64,000 nucleotides of DNA from an uncultured Desulfuromonas sp. (lineage in GTDB: Bacteria; Desulfobacterota; Desulfuromonadia; Desulfuromonadales; Desulfuromonadaceae): the NCBI RefSeq assembly GCF_963678835.1, contig NZ_OY787469.1, forward strand, positions 2,542,001-2,606,000, read 5' to 3'. Shown here piece by piece: positions 20,148-25,810 of the stretch; position 1 is the first letter of the stretch, and the number at the start of each line of letters is the position of its first letter. The translations under genes and the position numbers were made by a program. A model generated the notes under the pieces. That model did no database searches. It saw nothing but the letters and a program-made list of their open reading frames with translations, and was not told the DNA's origin.

Positions 20148-21302
20148 ATGAAGAACAATGCCGCAAAGACATTGAGCTATTTGATTGGCATCGCAGTTGC
20201 TGTGGCAGCGGGATTTTTTGCCCATAGCCTGATGGGGCCGGGGCAGGTTCTGCAAGCACCGATGGCCGGCGGTCAAAGGCCGCAGCCCAAAGTGGTGGCG
20301 CAGGTGATTGGTATGACGCCTTTAGATACGCAGGATAAATATATCGCCATGGTGGAGTCGATTCAGGATGTGGTGGTAAAGCCTGAAGTTTCCGGTTATC
20401 TCGATGAGGTTCGTTTTAAGGAGGGGGATCTTGTTAAACAGGGTGAGCTGCTGTTCACCATTGATAAGCGGCGTTACCAGGCCACTGTTGAGGTGCGCCA
20501 GGCGGAATTGGCCCAGGCGCGTGCTGAGCTGGAACGGGCAACAAAATATCTGAATCGGTTGCGCGCGGCCAGTGAACGAAGTATTTCACAAACGGATTTT
20601 GATACGGCAGAGAGCGCTGAACAACAGGCTCGCGCGGCTGTGCAGCAGGCGCACGCCACCCTGAATCTGGCAAAGCTTGATCTAAGCTTTTGTGAGATTC
20701 ATGCGCCGATCAGTGGTCGCATTGGTGCGGCGCTGGTGACCAAAGGCAATTATGTCACACCGGCATCGGGTGAGCTGGCCAAAATTGTTCAGATGGATCC
20801 CATCCGGGTGGTTTTTTCCATGACGGATCGTTCGTATGTCTCACTACGCCAGCGTGAAGTGTCTGGCACGGCTGATGATTATGCCGCCAAGGTGCTTTTG
20901 CCGAACAAGACGCTTTATGACGGGGTTGGCAGCAAGGCGTTTGCTGATAACGAAATGAACGCACAAACCGGCACCATTGCTTTGCGGTTTCTGTTTGACA
21001 ATCCTGATGGACTGCTGATTCCCGGTAGTTATGTCAATATTTTTCTCGAAAAAACGCAGCGGCCCATGGGGTTGAGTGTGCCGCAACAGGCATTGCTGGT
21101 TGATGCGCAAGGGGATTATGTGCTGACGGCGGATGACAACGGCTTGTTGAGCGTGGCACGTGTCACCCTGGGGAAAACCCTCGGTCGCGACCGGGAGGTG
21201 CTTTCAGGCCTTAAGGAGGGTGATCGTGTTGTGATCGAAGGCTTGTTGAAGGTGCAGCCGGGTGTCACGGCCCAAGTGACTCTGCAAGAGGGGGCACAAT
21301 GA
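20148..21302 (+). CDS. RND efflux periplasmic adaptor subunit (AcrA/MexA type)
   Basis: 384-residue membrane fusion protein linking the inner-membrane pump to the outer-membrane channel. It has an N-terminal membrane anchor ([21 protein letters not shown]), the lipoyl half-motifs [20 protein letters not shown] and [20 protein letters not shown], an alpha-hairpin between them (about residues 100-165), then beta-barrel and membrane-proximal domains. ATG 20148 is chosen because AAGGAG lies at 20131-20136. Its stop overlaps the pump start by 4 bp (ATGA). Confidence 0.93.
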
Positions 21303-24300
21303 TCTCTCGCGTTTTTATCGAACGTCCCCGTCTGGCGGGTGTTGTTTCCATCGTGTTGATGCTGGCGGGCATTCTTTCGGTTTTTGCTCTGCCAATTGCC
21401 CAGTATCCGCAAGTGACACCACCGCAGGTCAATGTTCGGGCCAGTTATCCCGGTGCCAGTGCCGAAGTGCTGGCGGCGACGGTGGCCAGCCCGATTGAAG
21501 ATGCGGTTAACGGCGTTGAAAATATGATCTACATGTCGTCGAGTTCGGATAACACAGGCAGTTATCAGCTCACCATCTCGTTTGAGGTTGGTACGGATAC
21601 CGACATGGCGCAGGTCAAAGTACAGAACCGTGTTGCCCAGGCTGAGCCGCTGTTACCAAGTGAAGTTACTCAGCAGGGGGTGACCGTTGAGACGGAATCT
21701 AGTGACATGCTGGGGTTTATGCTGCTGCGTTCAACGGACGGCAGCCTGGATGATCTTTACCTGAGTGACTATGCGTCAAAGATCATCAAGCCGGCGCTGG
21801 AACGTATCGCGGGTGTCAGCCGTGCTCAGGTATGGGGCGCTCAATACAGTATGCGTGTGTGGATGGATGCTGATCGTCTTGCGGCTCTAAACCTCAGCCC
21901 GGAAGATGTTGCCTCAGCCATCAGGGCTCAAAATCTCCAGGCATCCATTGGTTCACTTGGAGCAACACCGGGTGATGGTTCGTCCAAACTGGTGTATAGC
22001 TTGAAAACCGAGGGCCGCCTCAATGATCCGGACGCGTTTGCTGATATCGTGATTCGCACCGCTGCCGATGGTGCTGTGGTCTATCTCAAAGATGTTGCCC
22101 GTGTGGAAAAGGGCGCCGATCAATACCTGTATAACGCTAAATACAATGGCGACAATTGTGTGGCCATGGGCTTGAACCGTACGCCGGGCTCGAACGCTCT
22201 TGATACCATGGATGCGGTGCGCAGCGAGCTGGAGCATTTGAAAGCCCAGTTTCCCAAAGGGCTGGAGCTTGTGTTGCCCTATGATGCGACGGAATTCGTC
22301 CGTACCAGTATCTGGGAGATTGCCACCACGCTGGGCTTGACCTTCTTTCTGGTCGTTCTGGTGTGTTATGTCTTCTTGCAGAATTGGCGTGCTACCCTGA
22401 TTCCTGCGTTGACGATTCCGGTGTCGTTGTGCGCCACCTTTATGGTGCTGAGTGTGCTGGGTTACAGTATCAACATCCTCACGCTGTTTGGTCTTGTGCT
22501 GGCGATTGGACTGGTGGTGGATGATGCGATTGTCGTTGTCGAACGGGTTATGGAATTGATGACCCGCGAAGGGCTCAGTCCCAAAGAGGCGACGATTAAG
22601 ACCATGGAGCAAGTCAGTGGCGCGGTTATCGCCACGACACTGGTTTTGCTGGCGATCTTTGTCCCGGTGGGCTTCATGGAAGGCATTACCGGTAAAATCT
22701 ATCAGCAGTTTTCCGTTGCCATTTCCGCCGCCGTCCTTTTTTCAACCGTGAACGCTTTAACCCTCAGTCCGGCGTTGTGCGCCACGATGCTCAGTATTGT
22801 TCCTCCTAAAGAGCATGGACCGTTGAAATGGTTTAACACGACCCTGGGACGGTTGCGTGGCCATTATGTAGCGCTCAGTCTGGGAATTGCCCGTCGACTG
22901 GTGGTGACGGCACTCATTCTGCTCGGAGCCATCGGCGGCAGTTATTTTCTGTTTTCGCACAGTTCAACCACCTTTTTGCCCGATGAAGATCAGGGGATTA
23001 TTTTCGGCATGTTGCAGTTGCCCGAAGGAGCCAGTCTTGGTCGAACCAGCCGGGTTCTGGATGAGGTGGTGTCGCCGTTGAAAGATGAGGAAGGCGTTAA
23101 TTTTGTCATGCAGATCACCGGTTTCAGCATGATGGGAGGCTCCGGTGAAAATGTTGCCTTTTTTCTAGTCGGCTTGGAAAACTGGGCCAAGCGCGATTCC
23201 GCGGATTTGACGATTTCTGCCATTCAACAAAAGCTTCAGGGGCGTGTGGCGGCTGTGCCGAGTGCCCAAATCAATCTGTTTACGCCACCGGCCATCATGG
23301 GCCTCGGTGTTAGCGGCGGTATGGATATCCGCTTACTGTCCACGGAAGAAGACGATCCACAGAAACTGCAGGCGGTGTTAAACAGCTTTCTCATGCAACT
23401 GAACATGGCGCCGGAGATCATGATGGCGTTCAGTACCTATTCGTCCAACACGCCGCACCTGCATCTTGAGGTGGATCGGGTCAAAGCGGCCTTGATGAAT
23501 GTCGATGTCAATCGTTTGTTTGGTGTGCTGCAAAATTATTTTGGCTCGTTGTATGTCAATGATGTCAACTTTGCCGGTCAGGTCAATAAGGTTGTGATTC
23601 AGGCGGACTGGCCGTTTCGCAACAATGTCGATGCCCTTGAGGGCATCTATGTGCAGAGCACCACCGGTGCCATGGTGCCGTTGCGCAGTCTGGTCACCAT
23701 AGATACCATGCAGGCACCGCGAAATATCGAGCGCTACAACAAGTTTACATCGGCCAGCATCAACGCCGTTGCCATGCCGTCAACCAGCAGTGGCGATGCA
23801 ATGGCTAAGGTCGCCGCCGTTGCGCAACAGAATCTGCCGCGTGGCTACACCTTCGACTGGTCGAGCCTGAGCTATCAGGAGGCGCGTTCTTCCGGTGGCA
23901 CTTATGTTCTGTTGCTGATGGCCGTGCTGTTTGGTTATCTGTTTCTGGTCGCGCAATATGAAAGCTGGATTATTCCACTGCCGGTTATCGTATCAACCGC
24001 CGTTGCCATCTTTGGTGCGTTGGCCGGGTTGATCGCGGTCAGTTTGCCACTGAGTATCTATGCCCAGCTCGGTATTATTCTTCTGGTTGGTCTGGCCAGT
24101 AAAAACGCCATACTCATTGTTGAATTTTCCAAAACCCAACGTGAAGAGGGGCTGTCAATCCTTGAAGCCGCATCCGAAGGGGCCGGACAGCGCTTTCGAG
24201 CCGTGCTGATGACCGCGTTTACCTTTATCCTCGGTGTGCTGCCCATGGTGTTTGCCTCTGGTGCCGGGTCTGCCAGCCGCCGTTCCATCGGCACGACGGT

Positions 24301-25810
24301 ATTTTTCGGGATGGTTGCCGCGACGCTGGTCGGCATTGTTCTGGTGCCGGCACTCTACGTGATGTTTCAGACCTGGCGGGAGAAAGGCCATGCGTTCCGT
24401 TTGCGCCACAGTCGCTCTCATCTGACCACTCTGGTGCTGATGATCCTGCCGTTTATCATGAACGGGTGCATAACAGTCGGGCCTGATTATCAACGTCCTG
24501 ATCCTGTCGTGATTGAAGGTGCTTTCGAACAAGCAGTGGATGTTGGTGACTGGTGGACCCAGTTTAATGATCCACTGTTGACTGAACTGGTGCAGCAGGC
24601 ACTGGCCAACAACCGTGATTTGAAAACGGCAGTGGCACGGGTGCGCGAAGCGCGTGCGACGCTGGCTCGTAGCAAAGCCGTCTTGTGGCCGACATTGGAC
24701 GCGCTCGGTTCGGTTTCGCGCAGCAAAACGTCTGAGAATGCATCTGAGAATGCCGGTGAATCGACTTTGTATGATACCGGTGTGAATGCGGCATGGGAGA
24801 TCGACGTGTTTGGAGGCACCCGCCGCAGTGTTGAAGCAGCCAATGCCGATTGGCAATCCATGTTGATCGATCTAGGCGATGTGCAAGTTTCTGTTGCCGC
24901 TGAGACCGCTTTGGCTTATATCGCATTGCGCACCGTGCAATATCAACTGGTCGTGGCGCGCGACAATCTGGCCATCCAGCAGGAAACCCATGCCATTCTC
25001 GCTGACCGCAGGCAGGCGGGACTGGACAATGACCTGGCTCTGCAGCAGGCCACCTACAATTTGGAAAGTACCCGTTCATCCATTCCCACCCTCGAAGCTA
25101 AGGTGGAATCCGCCTACAATGCACTGTGCGTGCTGATCGGGGTCTTACCGGGTAGCGTGGCGTTGGAACCTTTGAGTCAAATTCCCCATTCCACGGTGGA
25201 AGTTGAAGGCATTCCTGCTGATCTGCTTCGTCGCCGCCCGGATGTTCAGCGTGCCGAACGTCAGCTCGCCGCTCAGACCGCAAGGATAGGTGTGGCTACG
25301 GCTGATCTCTACCCACGCTTTACCCTGACCGGTTCCATTGGTCTCGAATCTCTCAACACCTCGGATTTGCTGACCTCGGAAAGTGAACGCTACAGCATTA
25401 TCCCCGGGGTGCAATGGCCGATCTTTTACTTTGGCTCTATCCGCAACAACATCAAGGTTCAGCAAGCAGTTCGCGAACAATATTTACAAGCCTATGAATC
25501 CGCCGTGCTGACCGCAGTGGAAGAGGTGCGTAATGCCCTGATGGATTACCGCAAAGAGCAGGAGCGTTATGTTGCGCTGAATCGTGCCGTGACCGCAGCA
25601 CAAACAGCCGAGTTCTTGGCCAAAGACCAATATCGTAACGGGCTGACCGACTTCAATGCTGTGCTTGATGCGCAACGCTCGTTACTCTCCTTTCAGGAGC
25701 AACGAGTTGTCAGTGAAGGTGCCGTCAGCCAAAATATCGTGCGTCTCTATCGCGCTATGGGCGGCGGTTGGACGCCGATGGAAGCCTTACAAGAGATGGA
25801 AATGAGGTAA
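21299..25810 (+). CDS. RND multidrug pump fused in frame to a NodT-type outer-membrane factor
   Basis: 1503 residues without an internal stop. Residues 1 to about 1030 are a complete HAE1/AcrB pump: [15 protein letters not shown] first helix, two periplasmic porter loops, and transmembrane motifs such as [19 protein letters not shown] and [15 protein letters not shown]. From about residue 1040 a second signal-like helix with a lipobox-like Cys ([13 protein letters not shown]) leads into a NodT/OprM outer-membrane factor ([27 protein letters not shown]). The domains are normally separate genes, because the pump ends in the cytoplasm while the channel must be exported. An SD-like GGAGAAAGG followed by ATG 24390 sits at the junction but in the +1 frame and stops at 24423. 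Two explanations remain: a real fusion, or an indel that joined two overlapping genes. A separately translated channel from TTG 24401, GTG 24434 or ATG 24440 is also possible. Confidence 0.88.

Follow-up and report, generated by a model that had tools for sequence, protein, structure and literature searches.

The AcrAB-TolC and MexEF-OprN efflux systems are encoded by HAE-1 operons, in which the pump of the resistance-nodulation-division (RND) family and the outer-membrane channel are separate genes and separate proteins. Proteins of the two membranes usually arise from separate precursors. RND pumps of the HAE-1 family have twelve membrane helices, and the C-terminus of AcrB is cytoplasmic. 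We analysed a stretch of 64,000 nucleotides (the window) from an uncultured Desulfuromonas sp. (assembly GCF_963678835.1, contig NZ_OY787469.1, positions 2,542,001 to 2,606,000 of the forward strand), which holds an operon whose adaptor, RND pump and channel belong to these families too. Reading frame and translation confirm the initial annotation in that pump and channel are here one open frame of 1503 codons (Table 1). We consider it likely that this inherited fusion encodes a polyprotein, which is cut by LspA before Cys1057 to free a lipoprotein channel.

Both domains of the fused protein are intact. The Pfam profile ACR_tran matches residues 2–1023 with 1025.2 bits (profile positions 1–1020 of 1021), TIGR00915 reaches 1098.7 bits at a cut-off of 940.35, and the NCBIfam model NF000282 (RND_permease_1) stays below its threshold (1232.8 versus 1250 bits). 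The proton-relay motif of RND pumps, Asp-Asp in transmembrane helix 4 and Lys in transmembrane helix 10, is present by direct reading of the translation; a hydropathy scan resolved the pump helices only roughly. Among the best 60 of 98 solved AcrB-like chains matching the pump, lengths range from 1031 to 1069 residues and none is fused. The channel half is covered by TIGR01845 (outer_NodT) over residues 1052–1490 and profile positions 5–460 of 460 (336.6 bits, cut-off 210.05), so that the NodT-type channel is complete, as had been proposed. Pfam OEP matches the channel in two stretches, the better one at 1309–1488. The genome contains 27 OEP matches in total; these two lie in a frame of 1528 residues and the rest in frames of at most 688 residues. 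The best solved relative of the channel is OprN (E 4e-82). In the alignment T1059 pairs with residue 2 of the OprN chain, residue 1 of which we take to be the lipidated Cys. An AlphaFold2 model of residues 1034–1503, built from 40 sequences, has a mean predicted local distance difference test (pLDDT) score of 85.6 and shows long helices and four strands. A single helix at 1035–1055 (pLDDT about 64–72) is followed by a loose stretch, and the helices and strands of the channel begin at 1085.

A small indel that fused two overlapping genes had been suggested as a possible source of the long frame, together with an alignment of the junction with its homologues as a check. In this alignment the junction is equally open and free of gaps in three further genomes of the genus, G008, G002 and G007, whose pumps are 99.9% (G008) and about 91% (G002 and G007) identical to that of the window. 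A gap-free junction in four separate genomes excludes a sequencing error in a single one. Over 33 junction codons, substitutions at the three codon positions numbered 5/2/8, 6/0/5 and 3/2/6, which is too few and shows no clear third-position bias; the argument is therefore based on the relatives and on a frame that is open and free of gaps. The fusion occurs in four of ten genomes of the genus, and the other six have no channel match above 41%. In a scan of 395 genomes of the phylum, among the matches listed, a single match running from pump into channel was found only in the genome under study and in G134, with query starts at 1 and 5. The next earliest listed start is 53; with 534 residues, the frame of this match cannot accommodate a pump. 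The pump of G134 is cut by the contig start, yet it reads on into the channel.

A scan of named genomes revealed open fusions in four of 77 loci. They belong to a Pontiella desulfatans metagenome-assembled genome (MAG; L042, pump 71%, channel truncated at the end of the contig), a Kiritimatiellales MAG (L043, pump 63%, channel 57.5%) and two Acidobacteria, an Acidobacteriaceae MAG and Occallatibacter savannae (L044 and L045, pumps 38%). In several unfused relatives the pump and channel genes either have an ATGA overlap or are read in a common frame interrupted by a single stop, and an error of sequencing or assembly could join such genes. With the identical junction in four genomes of the genus and two fused Kiritimatiellota MAGs, we give this explanation next to no weight. 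Other candidates for fusions were rejected; several had arisen from reading through a stop codon or from the stated length of a frame. In G002 (position 1749758), G010, G051 and G011 the DNA shows two same-frame genes split by a stop. The pump frame of G012 ends at position 4458 of a 5240-base contig, L092 was dropped (masked letters, pump read out of frame), and the plasmid matches H18 and H27 were shown not to be fusions.

The initial annotation had considered the internal helix ending in MNGC as a possible second export signal, and the segment indeed resembles one. The Arg- and His-rich pump tail is followed by the hydrophobic core and by Cys1057, which is invariant across a channel alignment of 40 rows. 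The same succession of cationic pump tail, hydrophobic segment and cleavage-type site was seen in all 14 fusions that were compared. Nine of them share the junction type of the window (the four of the genus, L042, L043, L044, L045 and L149) and retain the Gly-Cys of a lipobox. The remaining five represent two other types (L119 of G002, G470, G031, G045 and a plasmid gene of Bernardetia) and have a signal-peptidase-I-like (SPI-like) site, picked by eye, in which position −3 is Val or Ala and position −1 is Ala or Gly.

Based on these features we propose the following course of events. The RND pump would insert with its C-terminus in the cytoplasm, and its cationic tail, R1027–H1041, would serve as the n-region of the lipoprotein signal peptide of the channel. 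The hydrophobic core (1042–1056) would enter the membrane as a thirteenth segment, by which the channel is sent to the periplasm. Lgt would then lipidate Cys1057 and LspA would cleave between G1056 and C1057. The freed channel would go to the outer membrane as an ordinary lipoprotein and reassemble with adaptor and pump. Lipidation, cleavage, export and assembly are steps that we infer; the genome does contain matches to the LspA, Lgt and LolA families. The topology of the fusion had been regarded as odd. It is no obstacle, since a cytoplasmic pump C-terminus, as in AcrB, puts the n-region of a signal peptide on the side of the membrane that it requires. In this view the signal peptide of the channel has turned into an additional pump helix, whose orientation is correct provided that the C-terminus of the pump is cytoplasmic.

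Alternatively, the chain may stay uncut as one polypeptide across both membranes. The intact domains agree with this, and a 1:1 stoichiometry suits a trimer sitting on a trimer. However, the distance between inner and outer membrane is roughly 200 Å or more, whereas the approximately 28 unstructured residues from Cys1057 to the first channel helix reach about 95 Å when fully stretched. This linker is too short for an uncut pump-channel to span the periplasm. Moreover, cleavage-type sites are found in every one of the 14 fusions, and for a chain meant to remain whole, the retention of two different kinds of site would be unexpected. We regard an uncut protein as quite improbable.

Several points weigh against cleavage of the fusion as the source of the channel. 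Our searches used junction-spanning queries, which fusions lacking a signal could escape. The MNGC of the genus has N at −2 and fails the PROSITE-type lipobox pattern in all four genus sequences, whereas the other five fusions of this junction type agree with it; LNGC, thus also N at −2, is present at the site of the unfused channel L141. PF03548 (LolA) also matches two methanogen controls, and its match is hence weak support. Furthermore, several fusions have in-frame codons at which translation of a channel could start. In the window this is TTG 24401, which all four genus genomes and also L042 retain. L044 has an in-frame ATG with a Shine-Dalgarno (SD) match of −4.6, and L045 an in-frame GTG (−1.6). 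In L153, translation of a separate channel could begin at an in-frame ATG with a strong SD match (−7.4 kcal/mol).

Internal initiation at TTG 24401 would give a separate channel precursor besides the fusion, and this precursor would keep a complete signal. The in-frame ATG of the fused L044 matches the start of its unfused sister L076, which is in line with such a mechanism. On the other hand, the SD match of the TTG is weak (−3.2 to −4.5 kcal/mol at 12 bases) and is equalled by 14–30% of the start-like codons of the gene. The region before the site was scanned for start codons in 12 fusions, with G008 and Bernardetia left out. In L119 and L149, the stretch 30–105 bases ahead of the site is devoid of start-like codons in all frames, and L043 lacks an in-frame one from helix 12 up to the hydrophobic core. 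The nearest in-frame start-like codon of L149, a GTG where helix 12 ends (SD −1.3), is almost without SD, like the GTG of L045. The in-frame ATG of L153 is missing in its near relative L152. An extra channel from internal starts could thus be made in some fusions, but hardly in others, and for the gene in the window we consider dual products rather unlikely.

The initial annotation had also noted GGAGAAAGG and ATG 24390 as a good start for the channel in the +1 frame, with a stop at 24423, and had concluded that the products may depend on frameshifting or internal initiation. All these elements are present in the sequence. The ATG and the TGA at 24423–24425 are kept in the four genus genomes, and the SD match is strong (−7.4 kcal/mol) in G000, G008 and G007, being equalled by 3% of the 316 start-like codons of the gene. 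It is weaker in G002 (−5.0 kcal/mol with 2-base spacing, equalled by 10%) and in L042, the fused relative from Pontiella (−3.0 kcal/mol). L043 has an out-of-frame ATG as well, 61 bases before the Gly-Cys site and with an SD match of −7.0 kcal/mol, but it lies in the +2 frame. Ribosomes that start at ATG 24390 would have to shift to the channel frame, and no slippery heptamer was found in the short frame in G000, G002 and G007. Its codons vary non-synonymously among the relatives. An excess of synonymous conservation at the junction was looked for and rejected, since the invariant run of 7 codons at 1030 is not unusual: runs of 9, 8, 7 and 7 occur elsewhere. ATG 24390 is a dead end after 11 codons, and a dependence of two products on frameshifting or on this ATG is not supported; internal initiation at the in-frame TTG 24401 has weak support. 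A relic of an old channel start explains the ATG equally well, and a start at 24390 followed by a shift appears highly improbable to us. This ATG and the out-of-frame ATG of L043 may both date from a time when the channel had its own start, although they may also have arisen by chance.

To get an idea on the history of the fusion, a pump tree was calculated by a quick method from 60 of 80 pump sequences, L045 being left out. The fused pumps of the genus are sister to the Pontiella pump (Shimodaira-Hasegawa-like approximate likelihood ratio test, SH-aLRT, 100), and both fall within an unresolved group together with the Kiritimatiellales fusion and an unfused pump of Persicirhabdus. The acidobacterial fusion L044 is sister to an unfused Acidicapsa pump. 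The fused state needs three changes on this tree, and the starred branches force at least two. The simplest histories are two origins and one loss, or three gains. The fused gene was probably moved between Kiritimatiellota and this genus, in either direction. The unfused Persicirhabdus pump (L053), which has no adjoining channel match, ends in REKTHSLRK, indicating that the fusion begins about where an ordinary pump ends.

In the unfused Acidicapsa, pump and channel genes overlap by 4 bases (ATGA). Another operon of G002, as well as G010, G051 and G011, has both genes in one frame, separated by a stop. Both arrangements are one small change away from a fusion. Although the indel proposed by the initial annotation does not hold as a sequence error, an old indel that merged overlapping genes is plausible as the origin of the fusion, because Acidicapsa has the ATGA overlap while its close relative is fused, and because the out-of-frame ATGs of the window and of L043, with their good SD matches, could be leftovers of the former channel start. 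Loci of unfused relatives with the same-frame arrangement are L021 (4726–9393), L024, L025 and L026.

A second type of RND fusion is present in relatives of the same order, namely G002, G470, G031 and G045, again with a signal-like segment between the parts. Of 118 genomes of the order, 5 had a match, and these four are the fused ones among them; for G470, G031 and G045 the sequence was fetched for the second half of the pump only. The locus L119 of G002 (2142–6602) is a fused frame of 1487 residues with an SPI-like signal between the parts. Its pump belongs to another RND subfamily, and the nearest NCBIfam models all stay below their cut-offs. G002 thus carries one fusion of the type seen in the window and one of the second type, which is a separate fusion event. 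A further fusion is encoded on a Bernardetia plasmid (NZ_CP147016.1, WP_338794304.1, 1439 amino acids, L157:2097–6416), where a single frame holds ACR_tran (5–1029) and OEP, linked by a signal-like segment. This gene is annotated only as a CusA/CzcA RND transporter, and the product name omits the channel.

The neighbourhood of the fused gene is included in Table 1. The likely start of the adaptor gene is ATG 20148 (MKNNAAK...; SD match −8.0 kcal/mol), and its stop overlaps the pump start by ATGA at 21299–21302. On the minus strand, positions 27625–33478 of the window hold a neighbouring RND operon, which has one gene each for pump, adaptor and channel. Elsewhere in the window, a frame of 1000 residues with an autotransporter beta-domain at its end was observed at 9231–12233, and a Y-family polymerase with IMS domains and a DUF4113 tail at 36251–37516.

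Table 1. Positions of the fused gene, its parts and its direct neighbours in the window.
Feature	Position	Strand	Evidence or remark
Periplasmic adaptor (MFP)	20148..21302	+	TIGR01730, 243.7 bits, cut-off 94.9
Fused pump-channel gene	21299..25810	+	Single open frame, 1503 codons
RND (HAE-1 type) pump, residues 1–1024	21299..24370	+	ACR_tran and TIGR00915
Cationic pump tail R1027–H1041, proposed n-region of internal signal	24377..24421	+	Kept in 4 genus genomes
Out-of-frame 11-codon frame, ATG 24390, SD-like GGAGAAAGG	24390..24425	+	Judged by-product or relic
In-frame TTG, weak SD	24401..24403	+	Sole in-frame start-like codon past helix 12 leaving the whole signal peptide
Uncharged hydrophobic core L1042–G1056 (15 residues), ends in MNG	24422..24466	+	Hydropathy; AlphaFold2 helix
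Cys1057, proposed lipidated first residue of mature channel	24467..24469	+	Invariant Cys; OprN alignment
OprN/NodT-type outer-membrane channel, residues 1057–1503	24467..25807	+	TIGR01845, OprN match, AlphaFold2 model
TetR-family regulator	25814..26371	+	TetR_N and TetR_C_28; begins 3 bases past fusion stop

A literature search, which mostly lacked coverage of subscription journals, brought up no title or opening of an abstract on RND-channel fusions, and the part of PMC8277102 available to us mentions none; a search for literature on the FbcH precedent (see below) and on internal signals gave nothing. Both halves of the gene belong to known families, and RND-channel fusions are already contained in public records, as the Bernardetia gene demonstrates. 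On balance, our data favour the view that RND pump-channel polyproteins are a recurrent class, in which the signal peptide of the channel was captured several times as an additional segment of the pump, and in which the subunits are separated by signal peptidase II or I once the chain has been inserted into the membrane. If the fusion is processed as proposed, an inner- and an outer-membrane protein would be synthesized at a fixed 1:1 ratio from one chain and the pump would keep an extra helix. A cut polyprotein would be a simple route to equal amounts of pump and channel, made side by side. It would also mean that a signal peptide preceded by twelve membrane helices is accepted by LspA and the export machinery. 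The fusion further offers a test bed for internal signal peptides. For annotation, it should be considered that RND proteins of this sort with 1440–1550 residues contain their own channel.

The fusions of G002, G470, G031 and G045 resemble the gene in the window in that a single frame encodes pump and channel, joined by a signal-like segment, but belong to another RND subfamily and have an SPI-like site. The Bernardetia fusion likewise combines RND pump and channel in one frame around a signal-like segment; it differs by a pump that is of the metal type according to its annotation, and by an SPI-like site instead of a lipobox. A related arrangement is known from FbcH of Bradyrhizobium, a cytochrome b-c1 polyprotein in which an internal signal behind a polytopic membrane protein is cleaved. 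The proposed polyprotein shares with FbcH this order of a membrane protein and an internal cleaved signal. Unlike the gene in the window, FbcH gives rise to parts of a respiratory complex, is cut by signal peptidase I, and both of its products reside in one membrane.

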